DNA of 64,000 bases from Bacteroidales bacterium (GTDB lineage Bacteria > Bacteroidota > Bacteroidia > Bacteroidales > P3). The position numbers and the translations under genes are program-made. The notes under the pieces were generated by a model, which saw only the letters and a list, made by a program, of their open reading frames with translations, ran no database searches and was not told the DNA's origin. The stretch covers positions 1-64,000 of the forward strand of contig JAGCUU010000036.1 of assembly GCA_017962665.1 (NCBI GenBank), in the 5' to 3' direction. Positions 24,060 to 50,760 of this stretch are shown here, one piece after another. Within the stretch, counting starts at the first letter, position 1, and each line of letters starts with the position of its first letter.

Positions 24060-25892
24060 ATGGTTAAAAGATACATACTGCTGATTCTCGCCTTAGGTGC
24101 GTTTACAGCGTGGGGACAAAAACCCCATGTCAAGGAATCGGTAGTGCGTATCAGCGCACGATATCTCTGCTCCAGCTATAATGTCGACGGAAGAATTTTC
24201 GATAGCGACGAAAGCCTGACAGCCATACTTGACAGCCTTCAAAAAGTGCAGCCGGACTCCTACCCCATCATGGGACAGTGGTGTCGAGTACAACGAATGC
24301 GTATCAACCGCATGAAAAACAGTCTGGAAGAATACCAACGAGACGGCGAATTGATATGGCTTGACTCCACCCACTGCGTCATCGATGCCCCTGCATTCAT
24401 TACCCAACTTGGGGAGATGGCGACCCTGCTGCAAACCAAGTCAGAGGAATTCGAACAACTTGAGAAAGAACGCATTGAGGCCGAACGTAAAGCGGCTGAG
24501 GAACGGGCACGTGCTGAGGCACTACGCATACAACGTGAGAAGGACAGTCAACTGGCTTTGATAAAAGACACCATACGCAACCTACACCGTTCCGTCACAA
24601 CCATCTGCGATGCCCGAGGCGAAAGTGACAAAATCCGCGTAAAAGAGCTCAAGGAGATCTACTACGCCTACCTCTCGGTATACAACCGCTACGACCTCAC
24701 AGACGTGACAACCACCGATTTGCATTTCAAACAACTAACGGAGTTATGCCAATTCCAGCACCATCTGCTTGACAGCGTACTTGGTCCCAACTCATACGCC
24801 GAGAGGATGGAGGAATTCAAAAACACCTTACACCTGCATGCAGGTAAAGACCATGCCGATGTAAACAAGTCGTATCTACGCGTTTTCAAGAAAATTCAAA
24901 TACCCATAAATTTCAAATCCATAGCTGAATACAACACCTATGTGTCGCAGCTACGTGAACTGATGGCAGTACAGCAAAGCTATCTCGAAGTCATCCGTCT
25001 ACGGGACACTATCTCAAAAAACAGCACAACGCTAGCCTTGCAGTGTTCCAAAGGGCACAAAGAAATACTAAACTCTTACAAGGAAATCCTCAGCGAACAA
25101 AACACGGTGCCTGCATACGCAACGCTGGTCTCTGCGAATAAATTCATCGACAACCTAAACGATTTTATCGAGATACAGCATCTGTACAGCGGAGCCATTG
25201 TGAGAATGGAAACAATCGATAAACGAGGAGACTCCATTGTATCGCTATGTACCAAAAATATCAGCGATATTGGCAATGCATACAAAGAGCTTCGTACAAA
25301 CACCGACCTTGTACCCCGCTTCATTAACAGAGCCAGTGCGGAGCGATACCATGAAATCCTTGACCAGTTTGAAGAGTTGCAAAGCCTCTACGTGACTGTT
25401 ATTGATATCAGGAAAAAAATTGACAAACGCGGGGTGACAATAACATCCAACAAAAACGCACCGCATGGACTTATAGCAGGCTACAAGCAGATGGTCGCCT
25501 ATACAGACTTCACACCGCGCTTCACAACCGCACGAGGAGGAAACGACTTTATCAAGACGTTGAACCATTTTATCGAGCTACAAGAAAAATTTGTCGAAGT
25601 CAGCAGTCGAAATAGCACTATTGTCAACAATACCAGACAATTCAAGACAGCCTTTAAGGATTACCACAACATTTACAAAGCTTACGAAAGGCTGATGAAG
25701 AGCTACGACTACGAGTTAAACATTATTAATGAGGCCGACATCAACAGCTATCTGAAACACCAAGAGATGGTGCTCGCAATGCAGAAACGATTCTTAGTTC
25801 TTGCCAACTCTCTGGAAAAAGAGGATTACGACAACCGCCTGAAACGAGTGCGGGACCCAGAGAAGATTAAACTGATTATGGGCGTGAATTAA
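24060..25892 (+). CDS. Exported helical repeat protein of unknown function
   Basis: A 610-residue protein with a signal peptide (to FTAWGQ). A charged coiled coil lies at about residues 125-170 (EEFEQLEKERIEAERKAAEE). From about residue 290 onward there are at least three diverged units of roughly 75 residues, each holding a YK segment, a TD..PRF or similar turn, an FIELQ-type helix, and a DKRGxxI/SKNSTT-type turn (for example FIEIQHLYSGAIVRMETIDK, then FEELQSLYVTVIDIRKKIDK). It looks like a periplasmic all-helical protein. No enzyme motif is visible. It converges on the acyltransferase gene of the polyene cluster and overlaps it by 17 bases. Confidence 0.65.
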   Translation: MVKRYILLILALGAFTAWGQKPHVKESVVRISARYLCSSYNVDGRIFDSDESLTAILDSLQKVQPDSYPIMGQWCRVQRMRINRMKNSLEEYQRDGELIWLDSTHCVIDAPAFITQLGEMATLLQTKSEEFEQLEKERIEAERKAAEERARAEALRIQREKDSQLALIKDTIRNLHRSVTTICDARGESDKIRVKELKEIYYAYLSVYNRYDLTDVTTTDLHFKQLTELCQFQHHLLDSVLGPNSYAERMEEFKNTLHLHAGKDHADVNKSYLRVFKKIQIPINFKSIAEYNTYVSQLRELMAVQQSYLEVIRLRDTISKNSTTLALQCSKGHKEILNSYKEILSEQNTVPAYATLVSANKFIDNLNDFIEIQHLYSGAIVRMETIDKRGDSIVSLCTKNISDIGNAYKELRTNTDLVPRFINRASAERYHEILDQFEELQSLYVTVIDIRKKIDKRGVTITSNKNAPHGLIAGYKQMVAYTDFTPRFTTARGGNDFIKTLNHFIELQEKFVEVSSRNSTIVNNTRQFKTAFKDYHNIYKAYERLMKSYDYELNIINEADINSYLKHQEMVLAMQKRFLVLANSLEKEDYDNRLKRVRDPEKIKLIMGVN

Positions 25893-27000
25893 GTGACGAA
25901 GACACCGAATTGGCATAGATATCGATCATCAATGACCTGATTTTTCCGTCGTCGTATCTGGACAAATGCTCCAAAAATTTCTCTTTGGCAGCATTGTCAT
26001 ATTTATCGGCAAAAGCATTTTTTCCTGCCCTAATATCGTAGGCTATATAGTTGTTCGGCATATTTTTATAGCCCTGATGTATTCGCCCGTCGATAAGTGC
26101 AGCAAGCCATTTGAAGAAATCGCCGTCATCCTTTTTGTATTGTTTCAGATCTTCTGCATCGATTGGTTTACATATAGAGATATGTACATCGCCCTTAGGT
26201 TGCATAATGCCGGTGATGACACTGTTGAGGTCCTCGTTTTCCGATTTATGGTAGACCCCGTCGACAGTCAATGAAAGCTCCCTGGCTTTCAAATAATCAC
26301 ATGGTTCCCATTCGTATGATATAGAAACAGGGACAATATGGAGTTCCTCTATATTAGATATGAGGTCGCCCTTACCGCTGTGGGCGAACATTTTCAGCAA
26401 CGACGGCTCCGTCTGGTCATATCCGTTCTTGGTACGACCGTTACGCTGGGCAATCCATACCGATTCATGACGGGCGGTTATGACATATCGCATATAGGCT
26501 GACACCAATGCCATGCTTGAATAAAAACTGCGAAGAGAGCCACCGCGTTCCACCTTGAACATTTTGTTTATACGCCCCAACTCAATAACCAAAGGATGAC
26601 TCATCAAGTTGGCACCGAATGTGATATGGCATGTCTGCAAACCCATGTTATGCAGCACCTGCTGCAGCAAGAAAGCGTCAAGCGTAATGTCTCTGTGATT
26701 TGAAACGAAAAGCGAAGGCTTGCCGGATTGAATGTTTTCAGTGCCGCAATATGCAAATTTGCCCACCGAGAGCTCCTCTATCCTATGAATTGCGTCGTAC
26801 ATAAACGATTTTTGCAGCTCGTCCACCGTCTTCATAGACAAAAGACGGCTCTTGACAGCCTCAACATCAGTGTCGGGATATACAAATGAGGCAAGCTTAG
26901 GGAAAGAGGCATCGCCCACAAGCCTGTCCAATGCTGCGGGCAACTCGTCCTGTGTATAAGGTCTTATTGTATCAAACTCTTGCGGATAATAGTCTGGCAT
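25876..27000 (-). CDS. PlsC-like glycerol-phosphate acyltransferase, last gene of the polyene cluster
   Basis: A 374-residue acyltransferase of the PlsC/LPLAT type without an obvious signal peptide. The catalytic block SNHRDITLD is at residues 100-108, giving a His-x5-Asp spacing, one residue longer than the textbook His-x4-Asp. A lipid-binding segment follows (FGANLMSHPLVIELGRINKMF, VERGGSLRSFY). The likely reaction is transfer of an acyl chain to a glycerophosphate-type acceptor; in this position it may attach the polyene acid to a lipid. It is 18 bases downstream of the ligase gene, and its end overlaps the converging gene by 17 bases. Confidence 0.78.
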   Translation of the reverse strand: MPDYYPQEFDTIRPYTQDELPAALDRLVGDASFPKLASFVYPDTDVEAVKSRLLSMKTVDELQKSFMYDAIHRIEELSVGKFAYCGTENIQSGKPSLFVSNHRDITLDAFLLQQVLHNMGLQTCHITFGANLMSHPLVIELGRINKMFKVERGGSLRSFYSSMALVSAYMRYVITARHESVWIAQRNGRTKNGYDQTEPSLLKMFAHSGKGDLISNIEELHIVPVSISYEWEPCDYLKARELSLTVDGVYHKSENEDLNSVITGIMQPKGDVHISICKPIDAEDLKQYKKDDGDFFKWLAALIDGRIHQGYKNMPNNYIAYDIRAGKNAFADKYDNAAKEKFLEHLSRYDDGKIRSLMIDIYANSVSSSLNSRP

Positions 27001-27018
27001 GATCGGGATTTGGGTAAT

Positions 27019-28320
27019 TCAGTTTTTCTTTCTTAAGTCAATAAATTTCACAGGCTTTCTACTCTTCTCAGGGAAATTGATACGGTGTATTTCGTCGGAA
27101 GGGAGGATTTCAATCTTTGGAGCTACGCGAATACGTGAACGGAAACGGTCCTTGAGCTCCTTGACGACATTATCCTCATTCATATCCGCATTTCTAAGTC
27201 CCACTTTTACAACCACATCATCTGTGCCTGTATCATTCGTGTCTACATATATCACGTAATTTTCCACATAGTCGGTATTGTCAAGAACATCATTGATAGC
27301 CGGCGGGTAAAGTGTGGTTCCTTTCAGCTTAATCATGTTGTTCTTTCTTCCAATCAGAGGTGTCAGACGATATGAATAACGCCCGCATTTACACTGGGAA
27401 GTGCATTTAGCTGCGACATCGCCGGTGCGGAAACGCAAGAGAGGCATACCTTCAACGCCAAGGGTGGTGACGACAATCTCACCTGGCTCACCGTCGGGTA
27501 CAGGCTTATCGTCTTCGCCAATTATCTCAACAATAATAAGTTCAGGATGCACATGGCCACCCATACCATATTCACACTCGGAGAATGTGGCCGACATCTC
27601 CGTCGACGAGTAAGTGGCAAAAAGCTTCACTTCAGGCCATTTCTCTGTGATACGACATCCCAACAGGTTAAGTTGGAAATTCTGGTCGCGCAGACCCTCG
27701 CCGATACCAATAATACGACGTACGCTGGAGTTACGGTAGTCTATGCCGTGCGACTCAGCATATTCTATCAGCCTCAGTATAAACGACGGAACGCACATGA
27801 TGGTATCAGGATGAATACGCTGGATAGTGTCCCATTGCAATTCAGGAATGCCGTTGCCCACCCTTATGATTGAAGCGCCCAGCTCTCTTATTCCCAAAAA
27901 ATAGGCCAGACCAGCCATGAAACGCTTGTCTATGGTAGTCATCAGCTGCAGTATATTGCCAGGATGAAGACCGGCGCAGGCAAACGATTTCTTTTCGTTA
28001 TATGCAAGACGCTGAAGATCAAGCTCGGTACAGGCGAAGGTAACAGGGTCGCCCAACGTTCCTGAAGTGGTGATATAGTCTATTATTTTTTCTTTGGGGC
28101 AACAGAGTATATCCTGGCTGTGAAGCTGGAGGTCTCGTTTTGTCGTGAAGGGTATTCGCGTCAAGTCTTCAAGATGCTTGATAGTGGAGATATCTATGTG
28201 CTCCCTTTCGAACATCCGACTGTAAAAAGGGGATTTTTCCTGAAGATATTGCAGGGCTTTCTGCAACAGTTTCTCCTGAAACTCTTTTATTTCCTGAGGC
28301 GACTTATATTCTATATCCAT
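27019..28320 (-). CDS. PaaK-like adenylate-forming acid-CoA (or ACP) ligase
   Basis: A 433-residue enzyme of the phenylacetate-CoA ligase branch of the AMP-forming superfamily. The ATP-binding P-loop-like motif is TTSGTLGDP near residue 84-92, then FATYSSTEMSATFSE, and RFRTGDVAA near the hinge to a small C-terminal domain (IGRKNNMIKLKG). It would activate an aromatic or polyene acid as an acyl adenylate and pass it to CoA or an ACP. In this cluster the natural partner is the arylacrylic acid made by the ammonia-lyase at the other end. It sits between the esterase and acyltransferase genes, with gaps of 15 and 18 bases. Confidence 0.85.
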   Translation of the reverse strand: MDIEYKSPQEIKEFQEKLLQKALQYLQEKSPFYSRMFEREHIDISTIKHLEDLTRIPFTTKRDLQLHSQDILCCPKEKIIDYITTSGTLGDPVTFACTELDLQRLAYNEKKSFACAGLHPGNILQLMTTIDKRFMAGLAYFLGIRELGASIIRVGNGIPELQWDTIQRIHPDTIMCVPSFILRLIEYAESHGIDYRNSSVRRIIGIGEGLRDQNFQLNLLGCRITEKWPEVKLFATYSSTEMSATFSECEYGMGGHVHPELIIVEIIGEDDKPVPDGEPGEIVVTTLGVEGMPLLRFRTGDVAAKCTSQCKCGRYSYRLTPLIGRKNNMIKLKGTTLYPPAINDVLDNTDYVENYVIYVDTNDTGTDDVVVKVGLRNADMNEDNVVKELKDRFRSRIRVAPKIEILPSDEIHRINFPEKSRKPVKFIDLRKKN

Positions 28321-28335
28321 ATCCAGAATACCAAA

Positions 28336-29190
28336 TTAATATTCAACAATAAAAAGGTTTTTCAGCCATTTCAAGAACGACCATTTCCATTCGCGGCTTT
28401 GCGAGGAGCCTTTCGATTCGTTGACACCGAAGCCGTGACCTCCTGTCTGGAATAATTGATAGAAATGAGGTACATTGTTGGCTGTCAACGAAGAGTCAAG
28501 CAAAGGGTAGTTGCGATAATCTACAACGGGGTCATCGACACATCCTATAAGGAACACCGGCGGACATTTGTCTGTCACCTGACGCTCAATAGACCACCTG
28601 TCCATCCGCGAAGCTGTCTGCATATGTCTCTCTCCAAGAAGTCCGCGCCGCGAACGTTTATGAACACACTCCTCTGTCATCGTGACGACGGGGTAAATGG
28701 CACCGACAAAGGCAGGCTTTATGCCGTTCTTTGTCACTGCCTGACTCAACACGAGGTGTCCTCCTGCCGAAAAGCCGACCATGCCTATATGGTCTGGGGT
28801 CAACCCATATTCTGCGGCATTGTCCCGAAGCCACCTCAAGGCCGCCTGGCCGTCGTTATACATGTCTGGAGCGACATTCCCACGGAAACAGATACGGGCG
28901 TGAGAGAACCACGACCACCATCCGGCGACACGATAGCGAAGGACAAAGGCACTAATACCATTCTCTTGAAAAAACTTGGCCACCTCCACACCTTCATTCT
29001 CATAATCAAGCCAGCAATAACTGCCTCCCGGACATACAATCACAGCGACATCAGAACCCTGCACAGGATATAACTCAAGAGTGACCTTTCTGCATTGACT
29101 CGAATCATCAGGATAGAGACGAACGACAGCCTGTCCCTCTACAGAAAGGACAAACACAAGGAAAAGACTAATGACGACAAACCGTTTCAC
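28336..29190 (-). CDS. Exported alpha/beta-hydrolase (esterase-like)
   Basis: A 284-residue hydrolase with a signal peptide (to VEGQA). The oxyanion motif PGGSYCW lies at about residues 54-60, the nucleophile motif GFSAGGH gives Ser141, a late Asp in CVDDPVVDY and a final His in GGHGFGV complete the triad. This is the BD-FAE/esterase-lipase pattern common in Bacteroidota carbohydrate esterases. Inside the polyene cluster it may cut or exchange an ester of the product at the cell surface. The start is GTG. The gap to the ligase gene is 15 bases. Confidence 0.8.
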   Translation of the reverse strand: MKRFVVISLFLVFVLSVEGQAVVRLYPDDSSQCRKVTLELYPVQGSDVAVIVCPGGSYCWLDYENEGVEVAKFFQENGISAFVLRYRVAGWWSWFSHARICFRGNVAPDMYNDGQAALRWLRDNAAEYGLTPDHIGMVGFSAGGHLVLSQAVTKNGIKPAFVGAIYPVVTMTEECVHKRSRRGLLGERHMQTASRMDRWSIERQVTDKCPPVFLIGCVDDPVVDYRNYPLLDSSLTANNVPHFYQLFQTGGHGFGVNESKGSSQSREWKWSFLKWLKNLFIVEY

Positions 29191-29211: not shown

Positions 29212-29574
29212 TCAATCGTCAAAAATCTTTTTCACCTCCTCGGAAGTGAGTTGGCGATACATCTTGCCCTTTTCAGCCTTGAAGTCAACCTCGAAATACT
29301 CTTCATCATAAAACGAGAGTTTTGAGTTAGTGTCGGGATTGCATTCGATGTACTTAATATTGGAAATATCCAAACCTTTAGCCTTGCATATCTGTTCGGC
29401 GAGGGATTGTCCCGCATAAGTCACGGATGTACCTGGGTTATCTTGATACAATTCAGTCACAATGACATACGTCACACCGTCACGCTGCCTAATCTTAAGG
29501 CCACAACAGGAGGGCATATCCCATTGGCCGTTAAATTGGAATATCTCGTCGTAATATTTTTCTGAAACCCGCAT
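29212..29574 (-). CDS. Small protein of unknown function in the polyene cluster
   Basis: A 120-residue acidic protein with no signal peptide or membrane segment. It has a PSCCG motif near residue 21-25 followed by a predicted beta-rich stretch (LKIRQRDGVTYVIVTELY). I do not recognise a family. It lies between the radical SAM gene (33 bases upstream) and the esterase gene (21 bases downstream) on the same strand, so it is probably expressed with them. Confidence 0.65.
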   Translation of the reverse strand: MRVSEKYYDEIFQFNGQWDMPSCCGLKIRQRDGVTYVIVTELYQDNPGTSVTYAGQSLAEQICKAKGLDISNIKYIECNPDTNSKLSFYDEEYFEVDFKAEKGKMYRQLTSEEVKKIFDD

Positions 29575-29607: not shown

Positions 29608-30903
29608 TTACTTTTGAGACGCACCTATATTGCGGACCACATCGTGACCAAACGATTTGTTTGCCAGTGCCCTGTTGCGTGGGCGGTAAGTACCCTCCTC
29701 CATTTCACGGAGAGCGACATTGCAAAACAGGCGGAACATCTTCTGCTCCTGGCTCTCGGAAGCATAGAAATGCTTCCATGCATAGTCATATACGTCCTGC
29801 AGCTTTTCAGGGGTCATGTGTTTGGGCTGGAAAACCACTTGACCGGCATTATAATGATCCCAATCAAAGTCGAAGATACGACCCTGACGAAGGAGATCGT
29901 CATACGATTTGGTGTGGGGGAAAGGAGTGAGAACCGTGAATTCCGCAAGGTCAAGGTCTATCTCGCCGAGGAAATCGATAAGACGCTTGCAGTCATCTTC
30001 TGTCTGGTTGTCGAGGCCGAGAAGTATGGTGCCTTCCACACCTATGCCATAGTCATGATAGCGTTTCACGCGCTCCTTGATATAGTCAGATGTGTCGTAA
30101 ACAGCTTGATAAACATACCAGGCTCCAGCTTTGGCAGCCAAATCGAGCACTTCTGGATCGTCCTCTATGGTATGGCTTATCCATTTTTTCTTTAGAGGAG
30201 CTATTGCCCTGAAGAGTTCTTTTTCCCATTCTTTGTTCTGAGCCAATGAATTATCGACAATAAACAACCTGTTATTATCGATGGCAGCCATATCCTCAAC
30301 CACTTTGTCTATAGGACGAGGACGGAACTTGCGCCCACCCAGATAGGAGACAGCACAGGGATAGCAGCTGAAACGGCATCCGCGGGAGGCATGGAAAAGG
30401 TCTACCATCTGTACACCTTTATGGTTGTAAAGATCACGTTTGTAAAGATCGCGTCTACAAGGTCCCACACTTTCAATGGGAGGTTGATTGCCCATAAAAT
30501 TGTAGACCTTCTTGAGACAACCGTTTTGCCAATCAATGATCTGCTGTTCCGAACGTCCTTCCGATTCACCCAGCAACACACTATCCATGTGGTTCACCAT
30601 CTCATCGGCATGAAGCATGGTGGATATTCCACCTGCCAGCACCTGCTTGCCTCTGCGATGATACTCGTCGGCAATAGCCCACGAGCGCTTCACCTGTGTG
30701 CTTAGCATAACCGAAACGGCTACGAGATCGCAATCCTCATCAAAGTCAATCTCCTCAACATTCTCGTCAGTAAACGAAATATCGACATAATCCGGCAGGG
30801 TTGCTGCATAGGCGACAGGCCCATGAGGCGGAAGATTGAAGGTAGTTTGGCCTCTCAACTTCTGCCATTTGGGATATATCAGTTTCAGTTTCAACCTGTT
30901 CAT
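29608..30903 (-). CDS. B12-binding-domain radical SAM protein
   Basis: A 431-residue protein. The first 130 residues have the Rossmann-like layout of cobalamin-binding radical SAM proteins (DLVAVSVMLSTQ, KQVLAGGIS), but the classical DxHxxG cobalamin ligand motif is not seen. The radical SAM triad is C176, C180, C183 in SRGCRFSCYPCAV. The core continues through DNSLAQNKEWEKELF and GTILLGLDNQTEDD, with a helical tail. Such enzymes methylate unactivated carbons, form C-C bonds or rearrange rings. It is the first gene behind a probable internal promoter. A role in tailoring the polyene or its head group is inference. Confidence 0.85.
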   Translation of the reverse strand: MNRLKLKLIYPKWQKLRGQTTFNLPPHGPVAYAATLPDYVDISFTDENVEEIDFDEDCDLVAVSVMLSTQVKRSWAIADEYHRRGKQVLAGGISTMLHADEMVNHMDSVLLGESEGRSEQQIIDWQNGCLKKVYNFMGNQPPIESVGPCRRDLYKRDLYNHKGVQMVDLFHASRGCRFSCYPCAVSYLGGRKFRPRPIDKVVEDMAAIDNNRLFIVDNSLAQNKEWEKELFRAIAPLKKKWISHTIEDDPEVLDLAAKAGAWYVYQAVYDTSDYIKERVKRYHDYGIGVEGTILLGLDNQTEDDCKRLIDFLGEIDLDLAEFTVLTPFPHTKSYDDLLRQGRIFDFDWDHYNAGQVVFQPKHMTPEKLQDVYDYAWKHFYASESQEQKMFRLFCNVALREMEEGTYRPRNRALANKSFGHDVVRNIGASQK

Positions 30904-30934: not shown

Positions 30935-30960
30935 AATTACAAAATAATTTTAATACCCAA
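30932..30960 (-). promoter_or_regulatory. Probable internal promoter of the polyene cluster
   Basis: On the minus strand TTG (30960-30958) and TAATTTTG (30939-30932) fit the Bacteroidota promoter consensus with about 21 bases between box starts. Transcription would start near 30925, shortly before the radical SAM ATG. The -33 part lies inside the end of the FAD-enzyme gene. Confidence 0.45.
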
Positions 30961-38327: not shown

Positions 38328-38329
38328 AT

Positions 38330-40339: not shown

Positions 40340-40362
40340 ATATTTAGAAAGTTGTTTTTTGC

Positions 40363-41565: not shown

Positions 41566-41822
41566 TATTTTGTACGGTGTTGCTCTATATATTCAGCCAT
41601 CACACGGACAGACTTGAAAATCTCTTTTCCCTCGTTGGGATCTTTTATCTTTATTCCATAGTTCTTCTCCATAAGTACTATCAACTCCAATGCGTCGATA
41701 GAGTCCAGAGCCAATCCCTCTCCGAAAAGGGGGGCGTTCTCGTCGATATCCTCTGGCTTGATTTCTTCCAGGTTCAACACTTCGATGATTTGTTTCTTAA
41801 GGTTTAAAATCAATTCTTCCAT
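41565..41822 (-). CDS. Acyl carrier protein (second ACP of the cluster)
   Basis: An 85-residue acidic helical protein. The phosphopantetheine attachment site is Ser41 in LALDSIDALEL. It differs clearly from the other ACP of the cluster (GVDSLDFVD), so each may serve different ketosynthases or the lipid-transfer step. It abuts the ketosynthase gene by a one-base overlap. Confidence 0.93.
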   Translation of the reverse strand: MEELILNLKKQIIEVLNLEEIKPEDIDENAPLFGEGLALDSIDALELIVLMEKNYGIKIKDPNEGKEIFKSVRVMAEYIEQHRTK

Positions 41823-41835
41823 TATTATTGTTTTT

Positions 41836-42411: not shown

Positions 42412-42427
42412 CTCCCAACCTCTCCTT

Positions 42428-43540
42428 TTATTTGTCTATCCTCCTGAATCCTGCTGCTGCATTGCAGCCTCCGAAACCCGAAATCAGCTTGATGAATGCT
42501 TTCTTTTCTGTACTTCCGTTCCTGTTGCTTACCTGCAAGGCATGTGACACTCCAAGTTGTTCGTAATTCCTCGTGGCCAGCACAGTATTGTCGTCGACAG
42601 CATTCATCGAAATCAATGTCTCCACAATTCCCGCCGCGCCCATAGTGTGGCCATAATAACCTTTAAGGCTGTTTACAGGGATGTCGGCAAGACCAGCTCT
42701 GCTTATCGCTATTGACTCCATCTCGTCATTATAGAGCGTGGCTGTACCATGGGCGTTCACAAAAGCCAACTCGTCAATATCCAGATGACGCATCACATCG
42801 CGAAGCACAAGCCATGACCCTTCGCCTGTCCTTGAAGGTCCTGAGATATGATTTGCATCGTTACGCACCGCTCCACATACCATATTCCATCGCGCCTCAG
42901 GTGCTTTGTCACTCTTCGTGTAGATTATCGTAGCTGCCGCTTCGCCGAGATTCAAGCCTTTACGATGTGCATCGAATGGCTTGCAGGCTTCGTCTGACAG
43001 CGCTTTGAGTGACTGGAATCCGGTGATGATAAAGTCTGACTGCACATCGGCACCCACCACAACCACATAGTCATAAAGACCAAGTTCCAATGCCCTCATG
43101 GCGGCAATCTGAGCACAGACTCCAGATATGCAGGCATTCGACACCACCATCGGTGGCACCGTGTTCCCAAAATAACCGGCAACAACCTTCGCCGAGTCAC
43201 CCAGCAGAGGGCTTTCTTCGGTACCAATGCGGTGAACATTTCCCTTGGTCGTCGACAGGATAAAGAGCACCCTGTCCGACGCTGCATCAAGGTCTGTCTG
43301 CGCAAGTGCTGTTTCCACAGACTGTATACACATACGCTCGAACTTAGTATAGGATTCTCCAACCCTGAGCTTGTCCTCATCTATTATCGACGCATAGAAT
43401 GGTTGTGTTACAGCACCTCGGCAATCATGAAGACGCAAAGCACTCTTACCGGACTTCAAAGCCTGGTAGTTCTCTGCGGTAGTGACGCCAAGTGGTGATA
43501 ATATGTTGTCTGCTATCTTTACAACCATTTCTTTTTCCAT
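42428..43540 (-). CDS. Beta-ketoacyl-ACP synthase
   Basis: A 370-residue ketosynthase with Cys137 in SNACISG, His263 in NAHGTATLYND and His298 in KGYYGHTMGAAG. The N-terminal part is short compared with FabF. It could start the chain by condensing the aryl starter or share elongation with the other active ketosynthases. Its first 22 bases overlap the end of the thioesterase gene. Confidence 0.9.
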   Translation of the reverse strand: MEKEMVVKIADNILSPLGVTTAENYQALKSGKSALRLHDCRGAVTQPFYASIIDEDKLRVGESYTKFERMCIQSVETALAQTDLDAASDRVLFILSTTKGNVHRIGTEESPLLGDSAKVVAGYFGNTVPPMVVSNACISGVCAQIAAMRALELGLYDYVVVVGADVQSDFIITGFQSLKALSDEACKPFDAHRKGLNLGEAAATIIYTKSDKAPEARWNMVCGAVRNDANHISGPSRTGEGSWLVLRDVMRHLDIDELAFVNAHGTATLYNDEMESIAISRAGLADIPVNSLKGYYGHTMGAAGIVETLISMNAVDDNTVLATRNYEQLGVSHALQVSNRNGSTEKKAFIKLISGFGGCNAAAGFRRIDK

Positions 43541-43926
43541 TCTTCATAAAACGTCGGATTAACCCACACCAACTGGTATTCTCTGTCCATAAACACCTGC
43601 ACCGAATGTCCAGTAGCCAACAGCTGGCCGCTCTCGGTGTCCCGTATCTCGTAGTCGAACACTATCTTTGCCGCATCCGTAGGTTTGTATGTTATCGTTA
43701 TTTCGGGCTTCATGCCGTAGACTATAGGCCGCTTGTAGCTGAAACTGATATCCACCAACGGCGCATAGTAGCCCTCACCAAATATTGTAAGATAGTCTAT
43801 GCCATATTTGCGTCCAAAGGCCTCGCGGGCATCCTCGAAATAAAGCATATAACTACCGTGCCACACTATATTCATTGAGTCCACCTCGCTGAATCTGACT
43901 TCAAATGGTTTCGTTATACTTAACAT
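43519..43926 (-). CDS. Hot-dog acyl-CoA/acyl-ACP thioesterase
   Basis: A 135-residue hot-dog protein of the 4-hydroxybenzoyl-CoA thioesterase group. The catalytic segment RFSEVDSMNIVWHGSYMLYF holds the Asp, followed by the YFEDAREAFGRKYG helix. It would release or edit aryl or polyene thioesters. Comparable thioesterases (ApeK) occur in aryl polyene clusters. It is 17 bases from the dehydratase gene upstream and overlaps the ketosynthase gene downstream. Confidence 0.88.
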   Translation of the reverse strand: MLSITKPFEVRFSEVDSMNIVWHGSYMLYFEDAREAFGRKYGIDYLTIFGEGYYAPLVDISFSYKRPIVYGMKPEITITYKPTDAAKIVFDYEIRDTESGQLLATGHSVQVFMDREYQLVWVNPTFYEEWKKKWL

Positions 43927-43943: not shown

Positions 43944-44363
43944 TCAGTTCAACAACGCTATCTTCATCTTTGCTGTTGCCAAAGTTTCCTCTCCTCTCCT
44001 AATCTCGGCGCTTATCAGCGTTAGATTCAACACCTCTTCTTCGACCTTTATCCTTGTTTCAATCCGTTCTCCCGTGCGCGCCATTGCCTCAATCTTCATA
44101 TCCGTCACCGCACCGATCACACCTAGTTTGACCTCACCGCCTTTCGCCAACGACAGGTATCCTATGCGGGCTGCACATGTCTGGGCTATGTTCTCCATCA
44201 TCCCCCAAGGCTGCAAGACACCTTCATCGCTCAGCAGACAATCCTCTGTCACGGTAAACTCCGTCACAGTCTCTTTCACGTCGCACATCACCATCTTGTC
44301 TATCAAGATGAACGGTGGCCGCTGTGGCAACAAAGTCAGTATTTCATACTCCGAAGGATTCAT
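43944..44363 (-). CDS. Hot-dog 3-hydroxyacyl-ACP dehydratase (ApeP-like)
   Basis: About 139 residues from the ATG at 44363, which overlaps the acyltransferase stop as ATGA; a TTG three codons earlier is possible. It carries LLPQRPPFILIDKMV and GVLQPWGMMENIAQTCAARIGY, the hot-dog helix of FabZ/FabA-like dehydratases of polyene clusters, where the His of FabZ is replaced in this segment. Acts in the dehydration step after ketoreduction. Confidence 0.8.
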   Translation of the reverse strand: MNPSEYEILTLLPQRPPFILIDKMVMCDVKETVTEFTVTEDCLLSDEGVLQPWGMMENIAQTCAARIGYLSLAKGGEVKLGVIGAVTDMKIEAMARTGERIETRIKVEEEVLNLTLISAEIRRGEETLATAKMKIALLN

Positions 44364-45202
44364 TGGTTCCAAAAATCAAAATAGTTAAACCACTGATATG
44401 GATACTGTTTGACAACGTTCTCCAATATTCCCGCATAACTCTTTGCCATAATTGCCGCCCTGCCGCGTACAGACGATTCGCTCCTGCTTTCCTCGTTGTC
44501 CACTCGACGGACAATAAGAGTATACCGTGTTGCTTTCTTTTTCATCACAAAAACAGCAAATACTGGTATTTCCTTCTGTGCGGCAAAAACAAAGGGGCCG
44601 GCGGGCAGAGCCGCCTCTGATCCCATGAAAATGCAAGGGAGGTTTTTTTTAGAACCCAGAAGGCGGTCGGCAGGCATACTCACAGCATCACCATCGTCAA
44701 TGGCTGCATTCATCATAAATATGTGCGACATATCATTCTTTACAGGTATCATGTCTGTGCTATGCCCACCCAGCACGCGACCACGGTTTTCCATGATGGC
44801 TTCCGTCTCGCCGGCATAGACAAGCGCATGCACGCGCTTGTTGTCGGACTTGAGCGTACATCCTGCAAGCTCATAATTACCAGTATGCGAGCTGAGCATA
44901 AGGAATCCGCCGGGCTCTGAGAAGCAGGCATCCACCTGTTCTTTGCCATCGTGTTCGAAATCAAAACCACGTCCGGCATAAACGGCAAAACGGTCTATAA
45001 TCACCTGTCCAAAGACGAAATGGTTGCGAAATATATACCATACTATTCGCAAACCTCTGGCACCTCGACGCACAAAGAAATCGCGCATAGCACGATAACC
45101 TTTCCTATTGAAAATCATATAGAAAGGAATAGCGAAAGCCATAAAGAAATAGATCACACGGACATCAGTCCAGCGTAATAGCCCTATCAGCCTTCGTTGC
45201 AT
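44360..45202 (-). CDS. LpxL/HtrB-like acyltransferase of the polyene cluster
   Basis: A 280-residue lipid acyltransferase from the ATG at 45202; a GTG at 45244 would add 14 residues (MGREWSGKTHGGTF) that look unlike the family start. It has an N-terminal membrane helix (VIYFFMAFAIPFYMIF) and the catalytic HTGNYE (His-x4-Glu, residues 106-111). Such enzymes use acyl-ACP to acylate lipid acceptors. Here it probably transfers the ACP-bound aryl polyene to a membrane lipid. Confidence 0.83.
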   Translation of the reverse strand: MQRRLIGLLRWTDVRVIYFFMAFAIPFYMIFNRKGYRAMRDFFVRRGARGLRIVWYIFRNHFVFGQVIIDRFAVYAGRGFDFEHDGKEQVDACFSEPGGFLMLSSHTGNYELAGCTLKSDNKRVHALVYAGETEAIMENRGRVLGGHSTDMIPVKNDMSHIFMMNAAIDDGDAVSMPADRLLGSKKNLPCIFMGSEAALPAGPFVFAAQKEIPVFAVFVMKKKATRYTLIVRRVDNEESRSESSVRGRAAIMAKSYAGILENVVKQYPYQWFNYFDFWNQ

Positions 45203-45263
45203 GAATGTGCCACCATGCGTCTTTCCTGACCATTCTCGTCCCACCTGGCTATTTGCGTTTTTG

Positions 45264-45506
45264 TTAGCTTATCTTCAATTCAATATAGTCGCAGAACTGG
45301 CCGAAGGTCTTTACCTGTTGCATCTCTTCAGGCTTGATCTTGAATCCGAACTTCTTTTCAACTATGACAACGATGTCGACAAAATCGAGACTGTCAACTC
45401 CAATATCTTCTTTCAGTCGTGCTTCGGGTTTTATTTTTTCCTCGTCCAGTTCAAGGTCTTCTACCAAAAAATCCTTTACTGTTGCTTCTATTTCTGTTCT
45501 TGTCAT
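45264..45506 (-). CDS. Acyl carrier protein (first ACP of the cluster)
   Basis: An 80-residue acidic protein with phosphopantetheine site Ser39 in GVDSLDFVD. Helix pattern and charge are those of FabF-interacting ACPs. It lies between the methyltransferase and acyltransferase genes, and a heptad repeat block fills the gap to the former. Confidence 0.94.
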   Translation of the reverse strand: MTRTEIEATVKDFLVEDLELDEEKIKPEARLKEDIGVDSLDFVDIVVIVEKKFGFKIKPEEMQQVKTFGQFCDYIELKIS

Positions 45507-45533: not shown

Positions 45534-45568
45534 AATTGTCAATTATCAATTGTCAATTATCAATTACC
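45534..45568. repeat. Seven-base tandem repeat at the methyltransferase stop
   Basis: Heptads AATTGTC, AATTATC, AATTGTC, AATTATC, AATTACC cover 45534-45568 and include the stop codon of the minus-strand methyltransferase gene (45560-45562). The consensus AATTRTC is close to the block near glyQS. Confidence 0.8.
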
Positions 45569-46663
45569 AACTCTCCTGCAGACCATTATGCTGTGACCGT
45601 ATCCGAGGTTGTCGACTATCGATTCTACCTCGAGACCTGACTTATTCACTACTCGCTCCATATCCTCAGAATGATACATCTTGCTATTGCCATTGGCAAT
45701 AGCAGTAAAGTACAAACTGGTCATCGTCAGGCAGAATGCAGCCAAATCATGACGCTGACGATCCCAGAATGTCTCCATGATGCAGAGCCTGCTACCTTCA
45801 TCCATAATGGCAGCGGCACGCGTCAGGATGCTCTCTATTTCATCCTCGCCGAAACAGTCAAGAAATTGGCTCATCCAGATGATGTCATAGTGTTTGTCCG
45901 TCGGGAATGGTGCCTTGGAGTCAAGCAGGTTGATTCCACATCCGTCAATACGGTCAGCGCCCTTCTTACCCTCTGTGAACTTTCGCATCATGCTTATCTG
46001 CTGAGGAAGATCCATGATAGTGACATGTACATCGTCATTGTAGTCGACACAACGCAATGCCCAACGTCCAGTGTTGCCACCAACATCAAGCAATGTCCGC
46101 GGTTTCCTATCGAAAACAACAGCGAGTGCCTCATCAAAAGAGTTGTCGGAATAAAAATGGTCGAATCCAAACCAGCTGTCCTGCACCTGTTTTGGAAGAC
46201 TGGAAAGTCCCTCATACACAGTCGGCCAGTCACCAAAATGTTCCAAACCTACGGGACGTCCCTCGTCGAGTGATTCCTCCAACCGAAACCATCCTTCATA
46301 GTTGACATCGTGATTGAAAGCCATGTTCACCTGTGTAAGTCTGTCAGCCAACAGACACCAACCGGTCTTAGTGAGAAGGAAATGCTCGCGGTCGTCGGCA
46401 AGCATAACGGTGCCGATGCATAGCGAAGCCTCCATCAAGACCTTGATAGCGTAAGAAGTCTTGCCCGTACGCTCAACGATTTCACTCATCGTCATGCCGT
46501 TATCGCTGTTACGCAACATCTCAAGGATGCCCCATTTGACCATTATGCGTGATGCCTGAAACACCACAGGGCCAAAAGCAATCCATTCGGCTCTGCGCTG
46601 CGCCTCTCTCGCCGTAAGGTGTTCTTTGGTATAGGCCGTTTCTAAGTTTTTTGACAGATTCAT
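45560..46663 (-). CDS. SAM-dependent methyltransferase with winged-helix N-terminal domain
   Basis: A 367-residue methyltransferase of the plant-type O-methyltransferase arrangement: a winged-helix dimerisation domain (about 25-110; WGILEMLRNSDNGMTMSEIV) and a C-terminal SAM domain with LDVGGNTGRW near residue 192. The motif ISMSQFLDCF-like segment IWMSQFLDCFGEDE matches the catalytic region. In E. coli aryl polyenes a cluster methyltransferase modifies the aryl ring; here ring C- or O-methylation of a hydroxyaryl head is likely. Confidence 0.86.
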   Translation of the reverse strand: MNLSKNLETAYTKEHLTAREAQRRAEWIAFGPVVFQASRIMVKWGILEMLRNSDNGMTMSEIVERTGKTSYAIKVLMEASLCIGTVMLADDREHFLLTKTGWCLLADRLTQVNMAFNHDVNYEGWFRLEESLDEGRPVGLEHFGDWPTVYEGLSSLPKQVQDSWFGFDHFYSDNSFDEALAVVFDRKPRTLLDVGGNTGRWALRCVDYNDDVHVTIMDLPQQISMMRKFTEGKKGADRIDGCGINLLDSKAPFPTDKHYDIIWMSQFLDCFGEDEIESILTRAAAIMDEGSRLCIMETFWDRQRHDLAAFCLTMTSLYFTAIANGNSKMYHSEDMERVVNKSGLEVESIVDNLGYGHSIMVCRRVGN

Positions 46664-46692
46664 CTGTTGTCTTTAAAAGTTTATGTGTCTAT

Positions 46693-47910
46693 TCAGATTT
46701 TTTTCACAATCAACGCACTGTTCGTGCCGCCAAAGCCAAAGGAGTTGCTCAGTACGGTTTCCACTTTGGTCTCCACGGTCTTTGCTGCTATCTTCAGCCT
46801 TGCACTGGCCTCGTCGGGATTCTCAAAGTTGATATTCGGTGCCACGAAGCCGTTCTGCATCATCAGCGTACAATAGACTATCTCGCTTGCACCTGCCATC
46901 CAGCATTCATGTCCTGTCATGCTCTTCGTCGAACTGATCCATGCTCTCTGACCTTCAAACAGACGTCCCAAAGCCTCTGCCTCGTTCATGTCGCCCTGCT
47001 GGGTTGATGTAGCATGGGCATTGACATAGTCGATATCACCGACGCCTACTCCCGCATCTTTCAATGCACGTTGCATAGCCAACACCGAACCGTCTGCGCT
47101 TGCCTGCGATATTCCGCCGCCATTCGACGAGAAGCCGTAACCTGCCACTTCGCAGATTATCTTCGCCCCACGTGCCATAGCATGGTCATAGTCCTCCAAA
47201 ACAAGTGCCGCCGCTCCTCCCGAAGGTACAAGACCGTCTCGATTGCGATCGAAAGGTCGTGAAGCCTTGGTGGGTTCTTCCATACGTTTCGAGAAAGCTC
47301 CCAATGCGTCGAACGACGCCATGCTGTAATAATTAGTCTCTTGCGCACCGCCACAGATAACCATGTCCTGCAATCCTTGCTTGATAAACATGTATCCAAG
47401 CCCTATGGCATGTGAGCCACTGGCACAGGCAGCACTGACGCTGAAATTGATGCCCCTCAGGTGGAAAATGGTGCTCATATTCATATTAACCGTAGAGTTC
47501 ATTGACTGGAATATCCAGCCTGAACCTAACAGCATAGAGTCCCTCTTCTCCGCCATGATGTTGGCCGACTCCACCACCGCCTTTGCAGAGGAGTCGTTGC
47601 CGAACAGCACGCCCACCTCATTTTTCAGCAAGTAATATTCGTCTATTCCTGCATTCGCGACGGCCTCTCTCGTAGCCATGTATGCATACTCTGCCTCTTC
47701 CGAAAGACCCACTCTCAGTCTGCGGTCCAATACCCCCTTCAATACAGGCTTCTTAACGATTCCGGTCAGCGACGACTGGTATCCGTAGCCTATCCTTTCA
47801 GGCTCCACACCAATTCCCGACCGCCCTGCATAGAGGCTGTCGCGCACTTCATCAAGCCCGCACCCTATACATGACCATATTCCTGTTCCGGTAACTACTA
47901 CTCGTCTCAT
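46693..47910 (-). CDS. Beta-ketoacyl-ACP synthase (FabB/ApeR-like)
   Basis: A 405-residue ketosynthase with Cys162 in SAACASGSHA, His299 in NAHATSTQQGD, and His334 in TKSMTGHECWMAGA. The Ala in place of Gly after His299 and the CWMAGA stretch set it apart from the other two active ketosynthases. It probably has a separate condensing role, for instance the first condensation on the aryl starter. The outer-membrane protein gene lies 4 bases upstream. Confidence 0.9.
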   Translation of the reverse strand: MRRVVVTGTGIWSCIGCGLDEVRDSLYAGRSGIGVEPERIGYGYQSSLTGIVKKPVLKGVLDRRLRVGLSEEAEYAYMATREAVANAGIDEYYLLKNEVGVLFGNDSSAKAVVESANIMAEKRDSMLLGSGWIFQSMNSTVNMNMSTIFHLRGINFSVSAACASGSHAIGLGYMFIKQGLQDMVICGGAQETNYYSMASFDALGAFSKRMEEPTKASRPFDRNRDGLVPSGGAAALVLEDYDHAMARGAKIICEVAGYGFSSNGGGISQASADGSVLAMQRALKDAGVGVGDIDYVNAHATSTQQGDMNEAEALGRLFEGQRAWISSTKSMTGHECWMAGASEIVYCTLMMQNGFVAPNINFENPDEASARLKIAAKTVETKVETVLSNSFGFGGTNSALIVKKI

Positions 47911-47914
47911 ATTT

Positions 47915-48454
47915 CTACCATTCGATTCCTATCCTCAATCCTATGCTTGACGGATGCATCTCTTCGAAAGTCTGGTCGTACGAATGTGTAGCTGTATTAT
48001 AAACCTCCGTTATAACAGTCTTGTACTTGGAAAAATAGGATGCTGTCAGCATCAGGTTGATGGCGAAATCCCTGCTCGATCCAAAACGGACACCGAAGGC
48101 AGCATCAGCATAGGCTCCTGTATTCTCCGAAAGATATGAACCCAACCTCATCTGAATGGTCGGGGTCACCTTGCCGCTATAGCAGAAGTTATATTTCAAG
48201 GCCGTGTAGATAGGCATGGCAAAGAAGTCGTTGCCCCCCTCCAAGGCGACACCTATTCCGATAAAGGTATTGCTGTTGAAATAGAAACCGTGTGTGGTTG
48301 AAAACGACACCGATGTGTTGCCATCATCCCATAGTCTCACGCTCGGACCTTGTTCCAAAAAGCCCTGATATCCCGAAGGAATCTTAATACCCTCTTGAGC
48401 ATTTATTATTCCAGCGACTGCAACCGCAATAAGCAATAAAGAAATTTTTTTCAT
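47915..48454 (-). CDS. Outer-membrane beta-barrel protein of the polyene cluster
   Basis: A 179-residue protein with a signal peptide (to GIINAQ) and alternating hydrophobic strands (TSVSFSTTHGFYFN, FIGIGVALEGG, ALKYNFCYSG, GLRIGIEW at the end). It looks like an eight-strand barrel of the porin/OmpW type common in Bacteroidota. Its place between the ketoreductase and ketosynthase genes suggests an outer-membrane role in polyene placement, but no specific function can be given. Confidence 0.75.
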   Translation of the reverse strand: MKKISLLLIAVAVAGIINAQEGIKIPSGYQGFLEQGPSVRLWDDGNTSVSFSTTHGFYFNSNTFIGIGVALEGGNDFFAMPIYTALKYNFCYSGKVTPTIQMRLGSYLSENTGAYADAAFGVRFGSSRDFAINLMLTASYFSKYKTVITEVYNTATHSYDQTFEEMHPSSIGLRIGIEW

Positions 48455-48482
48455 AATAGTATTTTTTTGATGTTTTTAATTT

Positions 48483-49208
48483 TTATAAAACTCCACCATT
48501 GATTGATATGACCTCACCTGTAATATAGGCAGCCTCTTTCGATGCCAGGAAAGCCACCAGTGCTGCCACCTCTTCAGGCTTGCCCATGCGTCCCAGTGGC
48601 ACCATCTTCTCTATCTCTTTCTTGTCCAATCCCGCCACCATGTCGGTCTCGACAAAGCCTGGAGCCACCACATTCACAGTCACTTTTCGTTTTGCCACCT
48701 CCTGTGCCAAAGCCTTGCTGGCGCCTATCAACCCCGCCTTCGCAGCCGAATAATTGCACTGGCCGGGCATTCCCTTTATACCGGAGACCGACGACACATT
48801 GACTATCCTGCCGTTGCGGTGTACCATCATGTTCTTCACCACCCTGCGGGTGAGATAGAAAAAGCCGTCCAGAGTTGTCTCCAACACCTTATGCCACTGC
48901 CCTTCGTCCATAAAGACTAGCAGGTTGTCCTCCCTGATACCGGCATTGTTCACCAACACCGACACATAGTCGTCCGTATGCTCGTTCTCCCATGTTTCCA
49001 AAGCTGCGTCCACCGCTTTGCCGTCCGACACGTCGAAACGCATCAGCTCGGCTCTTCCGCCAGCGGACTCTATCTCTTTGACCACCTCATGCGCCGATTC
49101 CTCGCTTCTATTGTAGTTCACTATCACCGGCCATCCTTCACATGCCAACCTAATGGCTATCGCTCTCCCCAAGCCTCTCGACGCACCCGTCACCATTGCA
49201 TATTCCAT
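48483..49208 (-). CDS. fabG: 3-oxoacyl-ACP reductase, FabG type
   Basis: A 241-residue short-chain dehydrogenase. NADPH motif GASRGLG is at residues 8-14 and NNAG near 87; the active site is Ser140 (NVSSVSG), Tyr153 and Lys157 in NYSAAK. It reduces the 3-keto group made by the ketosynthases before the dehydratases act. It is the second gene of the operon, 34 bases after the ammonia-lyase gene. It is likely cluster-specific rather than the housekeeping FabG. Confidence 0.92.
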   Translation of the reverse strand: MEYAMVTGASRGLGRAIAIRLACEGWPVIVNYNRSEESAHEVVKEIESAGGRAELMRFDVSDGKAVDAALETWENEHTDDYVSVLVNNAGIREDNLLVFMDEGQWHKVLETTLDGFFYLTRRVVKNMMVHRNGRIVNVSSVSGIKGMPGQCNYSAAKAGLIGASKALAQEVAKRKVTVNVVAPGFVETDMVAGLDKKEIEKMVPLGRMGKPEEVAALVAFLASKEAAYITGEVISINGGVL

Positions 49209-49242
49209 AGATAATACTCTTTTGTAAAAACCACTATTGACT

Positions 49243-50760
49243 TTATTTCCTCAAATATTTTTCCACTGACGCTATTCTGTCGTAAAACGGCTCATCTTCG
49301 ACAAACATGGGCACCAACGACCTGATCTCATCATATATCTTGCGTGTTGCAGGAGCCAACTTGTCAGCCTTTTTCAGACAATCCGTTGCTTGTGCCAATG
49401 CTATCATCAGTATCGACATAACTTCATAGCAGTTGTCTATCACCGTCTTGCAGAGCAAGGCGGTATTGGTACCCATGCTGACGATATCCTGGTTATCGTT
49501 GTTGTTGGGTATGCTATGTACATAGTTTGGCATCGCCAAAGTCTGACATTCCGCCGTAGTCGATGTCGCCGTGAACTGGCAGGCCTGCATTCCGTAGTTC
49601 AACCCCAACACTCCCATATTAAGGAATGGTGGCAGTATGCCGTTGATGCGGTCATGGAAAAGGTAGTTCAGCTGTCTTTCTGCCACCATGGCCACCCTCA
49701 CCATACCGATTTTTACCTTGTCCTCTTCAAGCGAGATATAGTCGCCGTGGAAGTTTCCTCCATGATACACATTCCTGGTCTCCGGATCAACAATAGGGTT
49801 ATCGCTTGCCGACCGCAATTCCTCTTCTATCACCCGTCCTGAATTCTCCAAAGTCTCCAGTATCGGACCAAGTATCTGCGGCGTACAACGCAACGAATAG
49901 TACGGCTGCACCTTGTGGCCGAAAGTGACATCGCATAAATGGCCGCCATTATACAATTCGTGTTCCCTGTCCAACAGGCATCCGCTGCCCGCGGAGAGCT
50001 CTCTCATTCGCCTTGCTATCTCTATCTGTCCTGCATGACGGCGACAGGCATTGAGCGGCTCCGCCATCAGGTCGTTATAACTTGATGCCACCTCGTTCAT
50101 CCACACACTTGCCAAAACCGACCAGTCAAGCAGCTTCTTTGCATAATGTTGGTTGACAGCCGCAATTCCGGTCATGACCGACGTCCCATTGGTTATCGAC
50201 AATCCTTCACGGATATGTATACCTATCGGCTTCAATTTCTTCTCTTCTAACACTTCCGTAGTATTGCGCCACTGGCCCTTGTAATGCACCTTTCCTTCTC
50301 CTATCAGCGTCAACGCTATATGTGCCAACTGCACCAAATCCCCACTGGCACCTACACTTCCATGTTTTGGCACAAACGGTATGATGCTCTCGTTGATGAA
50401 TTCGGTCAACAGCAGCGCCACCTCGGGATGCACACCTGAACGGCACTGAAGTATCGACCCCAGGCGAGCCACCATAGCAGCACGGACATATATATCATCC
50501 AATGGTTCTCCGGCACCAGTGGAATGGCTACGTATGATGTTGTACTGCAAATCGGACAGGTGTTTGTCGTCTACACGCCACTGCGCCATAGGGCCAAAAC
50601 CGGTATTAATGCCGTAGATAATCTTCTCGGCGGAAAAATTCTTCAAAAACAAATGGCATTTTTCTATCTCTGCCATCTTTTCAGGTTCAACGGAGAACTT
50701 CTCATTTCCGAAAAGAATCTTCTCTAACGCCTCTATGGAAAAATTGGATATTTGCAACAT
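49243..50760 (-). CDS. Aromatic amino-acid ammonia-lyase (HAL/TAL family)
   Basis: A 505-residue MIO-dependent lyase, first gene of the cluster. The self-cyclising Ala-Ser-Gly is at 138-140 (SVGASGDLVQLAH), the catalytic Tyr at 49 (IYGINTGFG). The selectivity position after the Gln carries Ser78-His79 (NIIRSHSTG), as in histidine and some bacterial tyrosine lyases, not the His-Leu of Rhodobacter TAL. In flexirubin and related clusters such enzymes make 4-coumarate from tyrosine to start the chain; that role is inferred from context. A good promoter is at 50814-50838. Confidence 0.88.
   Translation of the reverse strand: MLQISNFSIEALEKILFGNEKFSVEPEKMAEIEKCHLFLKNFSAEKIIYGINTGFGPMAQWRVDDKHLSDLQYNIIRSHSTGAGEPLDDIYVRAAMVARLGSILQCRSGVHPEVALLLTEFINESIIPFVPKHGSVGASGDLVQLAHIALTLIGEGKVHYKGQWRNTTEVLEEKKLKPIGIHIREGLSITNGTSVMTGIAAVNQHYAKKLLDWSVLASVWMNEVASSYNDLMAEPLNACRRHAGQIEIARRMRELSAGSGCLLDREHELYNGGHLCDVTFGHKVQPYYSLRCTPQILGPILETLENSGRVIEEELRSASDNPIVDPETRNVYHGGNFHGDYISLEEDKVKIGMVRVAMVAERQLNYLFHDRINGILPPFLNMGVLGLNYGMQACQFTATSTTAECQTLAMPNYVHSIPNNNDNQDIVSMGTNTALLCKTVIDNCYEVMSILMIALAQATDCLKKADKLAPATRKIYDEIRSLVPMFVEDEPFYDRIASVEKYLRK

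Follow-up and report, generated by a model that had tools for sequence, protein, structure and literature searches.

The locus analysed here, a run of genes at positions 25876–50760 of a 64,000-nucleotide stretch from a Bacteroidales bacterium (contig JAGCUU010000036.1; this whole stretch is called the window below), appears to hold the polyene half of a flexirubin pathway without its dialkylresorcinol (DAR) half. The cluster is of a known kind, in a widespread variant that we did not find described in the literature searched: the DAR branch was not found, and a radical S-adenosylmethionine (radical-SAM) protein, g20, is conserved together with a small partner, g21. We consider it probable that the locus represents a polyene pathway of the flexirubin type, without the DAR branch, in gut and rumen Bacteroidales, and that its lipid is anchored in another way and modified by radical chemistry. 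The novelty of the cluster is the highly conserved radical-SAM protein with its partner.

An earlier note, made from the letters of the window, had described an aryl-polyene-type cluster with a generic gene set, flexirubins standing outside; the aryl polyene assignment is correct, but the generic one has to be narrowed, since five proteins (FlxA, FlxB, FlxJ, LolA2 and FlxY) exceed the flexirubin-specific cut-offs of the NCBI models. Judged by sequence, the cluster is the flexirubin polyene set, reaching from flxA (tyrosine ammonia-lyase, TAL) to flxY (4-coumarate-CoA ligase). Open reading frame (ORF) calls and Pfam/NCBIfam profiles define a single minus-strand run of 25 genes, in which every gene named previously could be located and for which the profile naming largely agrees:

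49243..50760, minus strand: g1, flxA, tyrosine ammonia-lyase (NF053541, 822 bits, cut-off 700; GASGDL motif)
48483..49208, minus strand: g2, flxB, short-chain dehydrogenase/reductase-type ketoreductase (NF053542, 383 bits, cut-off 340)
47915..48454, minus strand: g3, small protein, by eye secreted and outer-membrane-like (no family in Pfam/NCBIfam scans)
46693..47910, minus strand: g4, ketosynthase (KS) with Cys-His-His (PF00109/PF02801; motifs)
45560..46663, minus strand: g5, FlxJ-family methyltransferase (NF053543, 583 bits, cut-off 560)
45264..45506, minus strand: g5b, acyl carrier protein (ACP) 2 (DSL motif; same order in relatives)
44360..45244, minus strand: g6, LpxL-like acyltransferase (PF03279)
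43944..44372, minus strand: g7, FabZ-like dehydratase (NF000582, 32.5 bits, below cut-off)
43519..43926, minus strand: g8, 4HBT thioesterase (PF13279)
42428..43540, minus strand: g9, ketosynthase with Cys-His-His (profile match and motifs)
41836..42411, minus strand: g10, probable KS-like fragment without catalytic motifs (weak match to a ketosynthase chain only, E 0.13; kept in relatives)
41565..41822, minus strand: g11, acyl carrier protein 1 (NF006617, 88 bits, cut-off 70; DS motif)
40363..41565, minus strand: g12, ketosynthase with Cys-His-His (profile match and motifs)
39314..40339, minus strand: g13, KS resembling a chain-length factor (CLF), without triad motifs (PF13723/PF00109)
38933..39286, minus strand: g14, EmrE/ArnF-like small membrane protein (PF00892 over cut-off; ArnF model below cut-off)
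38330..38923, minus strand: g15, LolA2 carrier of the flexirubin type (NF053544, 138 bits, cut-off 125)
37956..38333, minus strand: g16, FabA/FabZ-like dehydratase (PF07977)
37234..37959, minus strand: g17, family 2 glycosyltransferase (GT2; PF00535)
34001..37225, minus strand: g18, MMPL exporter fused to a PlsC-type acyltransferase (PF03176 and PF01553)
30937..33996, minus strand: g19, two CrtI/CrtISO-like flavin adenine dinucleotide (FAD) oxidoreductases in one chain (profiles; C half in a separate paralogue clade by tree)
29608..30903, minus strand: g20, radical-SAM protein (PF04055 over cut-off) whose N-terminal match to a B12-type fold (PF02310) stays below cut-off
29212..29574, minus strand: g21, 120-amino-acid partner of g20, no family matched (family and structure searches; neighbourhoods)
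28336..29190, minus strand: g22, alpha/beta-hydrolase between g21 and FlxY (GFSAG motif; signal peptide by eye)
27019..28320, minus strand: g23, flxY, 4-coumarate-CoA ligase (NF053551, 693 bits, cut-off 520)
25876..27000, minus strand: g24, PlsC-type acyltransferase (AT; PF01553)

The proposal of three active ketosynthases agrees with a motif scan, in which g4, g9 and g12 retain the Cys-His-His that we take to be the KS triad; g13, previously named as the chain-length factor, matched none of the three triad motifs, and each of the two ACPs (g5b and g11) carries the DS motif presumed typical of such proteins, as GASGDL presumably is of ammonia-lyases. Additional to the earlier gene list are the fragment g10, the EmrE/ArnF-like g14, the hydrolase g22, g21 and g3, the last of these without a match in the fetched stretches of relatives.

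The gene order places the cluster beside flexirubin clusters that possess the DAR genes. In the DarB-bearing genome G205 (G numbers are our handles for genomes) the first part runs TAL, ketoreductase, KS, ACP, LpxL, DarA, DarB, dehydratase, and further on follow thioesterase, KS, KS fragment, ACP, KS, CLF, LolA, dehydratase, GT2, MMPL, FAD, C45 acyltransferase and FlxY. G173 and G255, which also bear DarB, agree with this order, G358 and G400 are partly rearranged, and the order of the window is that of G205, G173 and G255 minus DarA, DarB and the C45 gene. Where darA-darB come after the LpxL-like gene in G205, the slot is closed in the window, with g7 following and overlapping g6; the position held by the C45 gene in other clusters is occupied by the radical-SAM gene, g21 and the hydrolase. 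Among nine stretches of the same genus or family, four (G514, G518, G537 and G544) are arranged as in the window, with 24 of the 25 genes matched and none of DarA, DarB and C45, G551 follows the window from FlxJ up to its contig end, and G466 and G496 are rearranged with the radical-SAM gene and g21 still together. A tblastn scan of public genomes with the radical-SAM protein (E 1e-3) gave at least 551 coding stretches, the best 80 of which were examined (the 80 loci, chosen by radical-SAM likeness and each spanning up to 10 kb on either side of that gene); as these stretches are so many and the order is mostly kept among the best 80, the cluster is more than a chance arrangement. All 80 lack a match for DarA, DarB or C45, whereby the FAD-to-FlxY stretch is covered in most of them and, given the 10 kb reach, the slot for DarA and DarB in very few (LpxL matched in 2, dehydratase g7 in 3).

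The earlier note had seen no DarA or DarB within the cluster, and neither was found there or elsewhere in the source assembly (1.88 Mb, 41 contigs), which is 76.6% complete. Absence from the cluster itself proves little, because Chitinophaga pinensis carries darB-darA (Cpin_6850-51) apart from its flxA-flxY locus (PMC3992019; here and below, statements on the literature refer to excerpts of the papers cited), and thus a whole-genome search was needed. Whilst DarB exceeded the model cut-off of 550 bits in 26 of 38 genomes searched, the best score in the own genome was 38 bits, and neither this genome nor the radical-SAM-bearing relatives G101, G034 and G148 (99, 96 and 93% complete) gave a match at E 1e-20; DarA (21 genomes, E 1e-5) was matched in nine and in none of these four. 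The C45 acyltransferase was matched in 28 of 37 genomes searched and was absent from the own genome (G000), G079, G101, G034, G148, G123, G106, G003 and G001, amongst which the absence from G079 is uninformative because that genome is without FlxA, and DarA and DarB were also not found in G106, G003 and G001.

The C45 gene (PF03417/NF040521) encodes about 555 amino acids, and the start of the G205 copy looks by eye like a lipoprotein signal. In G400 the run is MMPL, FAD, C45, an AcpS-like ORF (by eye) and FlxY, which would fit flxU-flxY of C. pinensis; from this position, together with the "ligase-like" wording for FlxW in PMC3992019, we presume that the C45 acyltransferase is FlxW, which has been proposed as the ligase joining polyene to resorcinol (PMC3992019). 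Part of its place is taken in the window by the hydrolase g22. FlxY was present in the DNA fetched for 17 genomes: five carry the hydrolase (G101, G034, G123, G148 and G003) and all of them are C45-less, all ten with C45 in the fetched DNA lack the hydrolase, G106 is without both, and G247 has no hydrolase and no C45 in its fetched stretch, no search having been made elsewhere in that genome. Such an exclusion would suit g22 as a substitute transacylase, though this role is guesswork.

An ordinary flexirubin cluster, its DAR genes lying in the missing quarter of the genome and the radical-SAM protein adding a minor decoration, would account for the same window. The incompleteness of the own assembly and the remote darAB of C. 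pinensis (PMC3992019) speak for this, as do five radical-SAM-bearing genomes that do possess DarA and DarB, the C45-less G123 among them. However, the C45 gene, which is borne on the cluster, is lacking from a cluster that is otherwise complete, and G101, G034 and G148 bear the radical-SAM gene at 93–99% completeness and are likewise without DarA and DarB; we therefore hold this explanation to be improbable.

The radical-SAM gene, which the earlier note had marked as unusual, deserves that description: in a sample of 296 genomes across the phylum, FlxA was over cut-off in 25 and the radical-SAM protein (E 1e-100) was found in the own genome alone, so that none of the 24 other FlxA-bearing genomes carries it, 21 of which have DarB over cut-off. 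Within the order (149 genomes), an orthologue (at least 65% identity, the next matches reaching at most 34%) is present in 13 including the own genome, FlxA in 28 (27 over cut-off) and both in 10 (Fisher p 2.4e-6, to be taken as a guide value as the genomes are related). g21 was found in nine of the 149, every one of them bearing the radical-SAM gene and with g21 adjoining it; in G047 the contig terminates within the radical-SAM gene. Pfam/NCBIfam and solved-structure searches with g21 returned only weak, unlike matches. The companions found most often in the best 80 of at least 551 loci are g21 (80), FlxY (76), the hydrolase (75), FAD (75) and MMPL (73). Median identity to the window across these loci is 88% for the radical-SAM protein, a value favoured by the choice of loci, followed by ACP (78%), FlxY (77%), g21 (70%), KS g12 (64%), GT2 (57%), CLF, FAD, AT, hydrolase and MMPL (43–50%) and LolA (30%); in G123, the identity is 76% for the radical-SAM protein versus 60% for FlxY. 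No clear link between the presence of the radical-SAM gene and the FlxJ methyltransferase was seen.

The radical-SAM gene and g21 might be mere neighbours with a role unrelated to the pigment. This would suit G141 and G027, in which no other cluster gene was matched in the fetched stretch around the radical-SAM gene, G129, in which only TAL and DarA were, and G540 and G472, in which the polyene-assembly genes are not beside it. On the other hand, FlxY lies within 10 kb in 76 of the 80 loci and FAD in 75, the co-occurrence with FlxA holds at the p value given above, and 19 stretches around radical-SAM paralogues of 25–31% identity, a part of all such paralogues, contain no KS, ACP, FAD or FlxY match (E 1e-6), and hence we regard an unrelated role as quite improbable. 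As a separate observation, L300 (G134:C23), L297 (G130:C142) and L303 (G046:C30) contain tandem pairs or triplets of radical-SAM paralogues 25–30% identical to g20, with KS, ACP, FAD and FlxY unmatched alongside. The candidate role of the radical-SAM protein as a substitute for DarA and DarB was rejected, as DarB is over cut-off in 5 of 13 order genomes with the radical-SAM gene; of the 18 order genomes that have FlxA and lack the radical-SAM gene, 5 show it too, which reveals no link. At L045 (G129:C91, contig 39873–43685) the ammonia-lyase gene and the radical-SAM gene flank DarA, all three on one strand, with DarB on another contig.

As for the kind of enzyme, the "B12-type radical SAM" of the earlier note stands in its radical-SAM part, with a CxxxCxxC motif, the three cysteines of which are invariant across 13 aligned sequences, and PF04055 over cut-off; the B12 domain PF02310 reaches 24.0 bits against a cut-off of 32.1. 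Among curated models, TIGR04013, HpnJ and BchE come closest, each with a score far below its cut-off. A further match, to the "ladder" model TIGR04072, brings in another explanation, namely ring formation from the polyene by the radical-SAM and FAD enzymes, along the lines suggested for anammox ladderane clusters. In anammox bacteria and Desulfotalea, type II fatty acid synthesis clusters likewise bring together enzymes of the radical-SAM and phytoene-desaturase-like kinds with a glycosyltransferase and a phenylacetyl-CoA ligase (PMC2649909). However, g20 scores 34.2 bits with TIGR04072, for which the cut-off is 360, and thereby falls under TIGR04013, HpnJ and BchE, flexirubin clusters with DarB regularly include the FAD enzyme, and PMC2649909 puts ring formation forward as a proposal; ladderane-like ring formation is thus highly improbable.

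The FAD enzyme g19 had been singled out as an uncommon double oxidoreductase, yet DarB-bearing clusters have single FAD genes at the corresponding position. In a tree of 53 sequences (midpoint root), the N half stands among the FAD enzymes of DarB-bearing clusters (larger group 89/85), the C half groups (99/97) with the unfused second FAD gene of G106, and the second FAD match of G400 is a very long branch of unsure placement. G106 shows FAD, FAD, FlxY where others show FAD, C45, FlxY. In view of the tree and the positions in DarB-bearing clusters, the double enzyme was rejected as an uncommon tailoring enzyme; the doubling is special only as a fusion to an in-cluster paralogue, four same-genus clusters possessing a single FAD gene. 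Across the 80 loci, 28 have the fused form, 9 a separate pair on the radical-SAM strand, 33 the C type only, 3 the N type only on the radical-SAM strand (including L255, with a C-type FAD gene on the opposite strand) and 7 no match, some of these being cut by contig ends.

Returning to the reading of a flexirubin-type polyene pathway without the DAR branch, the following route can be proposed. Orthology with the C. pinensis enzymes, for which FlxA and FlxY were assayed (PMC3992019), suggests that FlxA would convert tyrosine into 4-coumarate and FlxY would activate this to 4-coumaroyl-CoA, and, again by orthology, the ketosynthases, CLF, ACPs, reductase and dehydratases would extend it iteratively to an aryl polyene, with methylation expected from FlxJ. 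A likely task of the FAD enzyme, by analogy with CrtISO and CrtI, is the introduction or alteration of double bonds. As DarA, DarB and the C45 acyltransferase were not found, we propose a glycerolipid or glycolipid as the probable alternative carrier of the polyene acid, with ester formation catalysed by the acyltransferases of LpxL and PlsC type or by g22 as transacylase, and outward transport may proceed via MMPL and LolA2. The radical-SAM protein and g21 would act as one unit in a radical modification of the aryl polyene, a chemistry suited to anaerobic cells, the likeliest change being C-methylation or another alteration of the chain or ring. A bolder version, in which the radical-SAM–g21 unit and the FAD enzyme rebuild the polyene anaerobically (rings, new C-C bonds, chain methyls) into a new class of outer-membrane polyene lipids in Bacteroidales of gut and rumen, perhaps hundreds of species, appears rather unlikely to us.

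Several observations weigh against this pathway. Beyond the limited completeness of the own genome, the five DarA-bearing genomes with DarB over cut-off amongst the 13 radical-SAM-bearing genomes of the order (G123, G097, G129, G046 and G141) indicate that gain of the radical-SAM gene and loss of the DAR branch are separate; four of the five keep C45, whilst G123 combines DarA, DarB and the hydrolase without C45, so that C45 may not be the sole route to a DAR ester. The radical-SAM gene is patchy (30 of 190 genomes in the own family), and the FlxA-bearing, C45-less G106 and G003 are without it, which means that such clusters also exist in its absence. G129, G141 and G027 have the radical-SAM gene and the g21 query was unmatched there; G540 and G472, whose radical-SAM protein is nearest to that of the window (92%), show only radical-SAM, g21, hydrolase, FlxY and AT, with polyene-assembly genes not seen in the fetched stretch. 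Conservation of the radical-SAM protein is exceeded in G034 by that of an 85-amino-acid ACP (79% versus 77%, FlxY there having 60%), the subthreshold PF02310 score leaves a B12-type enzyme plausible only, and life without oxygen is deduced for the host from the rumen and gut titles of its relatives.

These relatives are titled Bacteroidales, Bacteroidaceae, Muribaculaceae, Bacteroidia or Bacteroidetes in the 80 loci, rumen and gut sources being frequent, and the sole isolate among them, Caecibacteroides pullorum AN421 (Bacteroidaceae), carries the radical-SAM–g21 unit: its locus L240 has these two genes with a FAD pair, the hydrolase and AT, while FlxY and TAL were unmatched inside the 10 kb covered. 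Related clusters were also met elsewhere: L163 (G003:C36:46000-65999) is a reduced flexirubin-like cluster of TAL, LpxL, KS, KS fragment, ACP, KS, CLF, GT2, hydrolase, FlxY and AT, in which ketoreductase, dehydratase, MMPL, FAD and radical-SAM queries all found no match, and Bacteroides ihuae, a control genome, has FlxA over cut-off and hence possibly a flexirubin-type cluster in a named Bacteroides. With regard to the flanks, the gene at 50993–52066 adjoining flxA is over cut-off for L-erythro-3,5-diaminohexanoate dehydrogenase of lysine fermentation (NF052381) and is overlapped by a plus-strand ORF of 346 amino acids, whilst 22606–24051 encodes a PurF-like protein (209 bits, cut-off 350) with a 610-amino-acid neighbour that matched no family.

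Flexirubin clusters have been reported in five of six Bacteroidetes classes analysed (PMC9248904), aryl-polyene is the second most numerous antiSMASH class in 8,160 rumen genomes (2,800 of 14,814; PMC8241843), and one anaerobic Clostridium produces a different kind of aryl-polyene pigments (PMC11839114). In the literature searched, mostly titles and the starts of abstracts, we found no radical-SAM gene in a flexirubin or aryl-polyene cluster, and in the excerpt of PMC12453396 the mention of radical SAM is confined to the reference list. Our findings point to an undescribed yellow lipid of intestinal and rumen bacteria and offer a testable split between clusters with the flexirubin genes and clusters in which DarA, DarB and C45 were not found and that carry the radical-SAM–g21 unit. 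This touches pBGC-12, an arylpolyene cluster of gut Bacteroides xylanisolvens that is syntenic with the C. pinensis flexirubin cluster and was called flexirubin-like (PMC12940132); without a check for DarA, DarB and C45, a "flexirubin" label derived from such likeness could prove incorrect.

When compared to other known systems, the window shares with the E. coli-type aryl polyene the polyene assembly with acyltransferases and Lol-like outer-membrane export, but the E. coli type starts from 4-hydroxybenzoate by ApeH (PMC8253772), not from tyrosine by FlxA/FlxY. With the ladderane candidate clusters it has in common radical-SAM and phytoene-desaturase-like enzymes in a fatty-acid cluster (PMC2649909), although the radical-SAM families differ by the TIGR04072 score. 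The sole solved sequence matching the g20 profile is AprD4 of the apramycin pathway (PDB 6fd2), through the radical-SAM domain (E 9e-6) and limited to profile positions 167–366. The cluster resembles flxA-flxY of C. pinensis in the FlxA/FlxY start, the logic of KS, ketoreductase, dehydratase and thioesterase, the exporter, LolA, glycosyltransferase and acyltransferase, and differs from it in that DarA, DarB and C45 were not found and that the radical-SAM protein, g21, the hydrolase, the ArnF-like protein and the FAD paralogue are added (PMC3992019).

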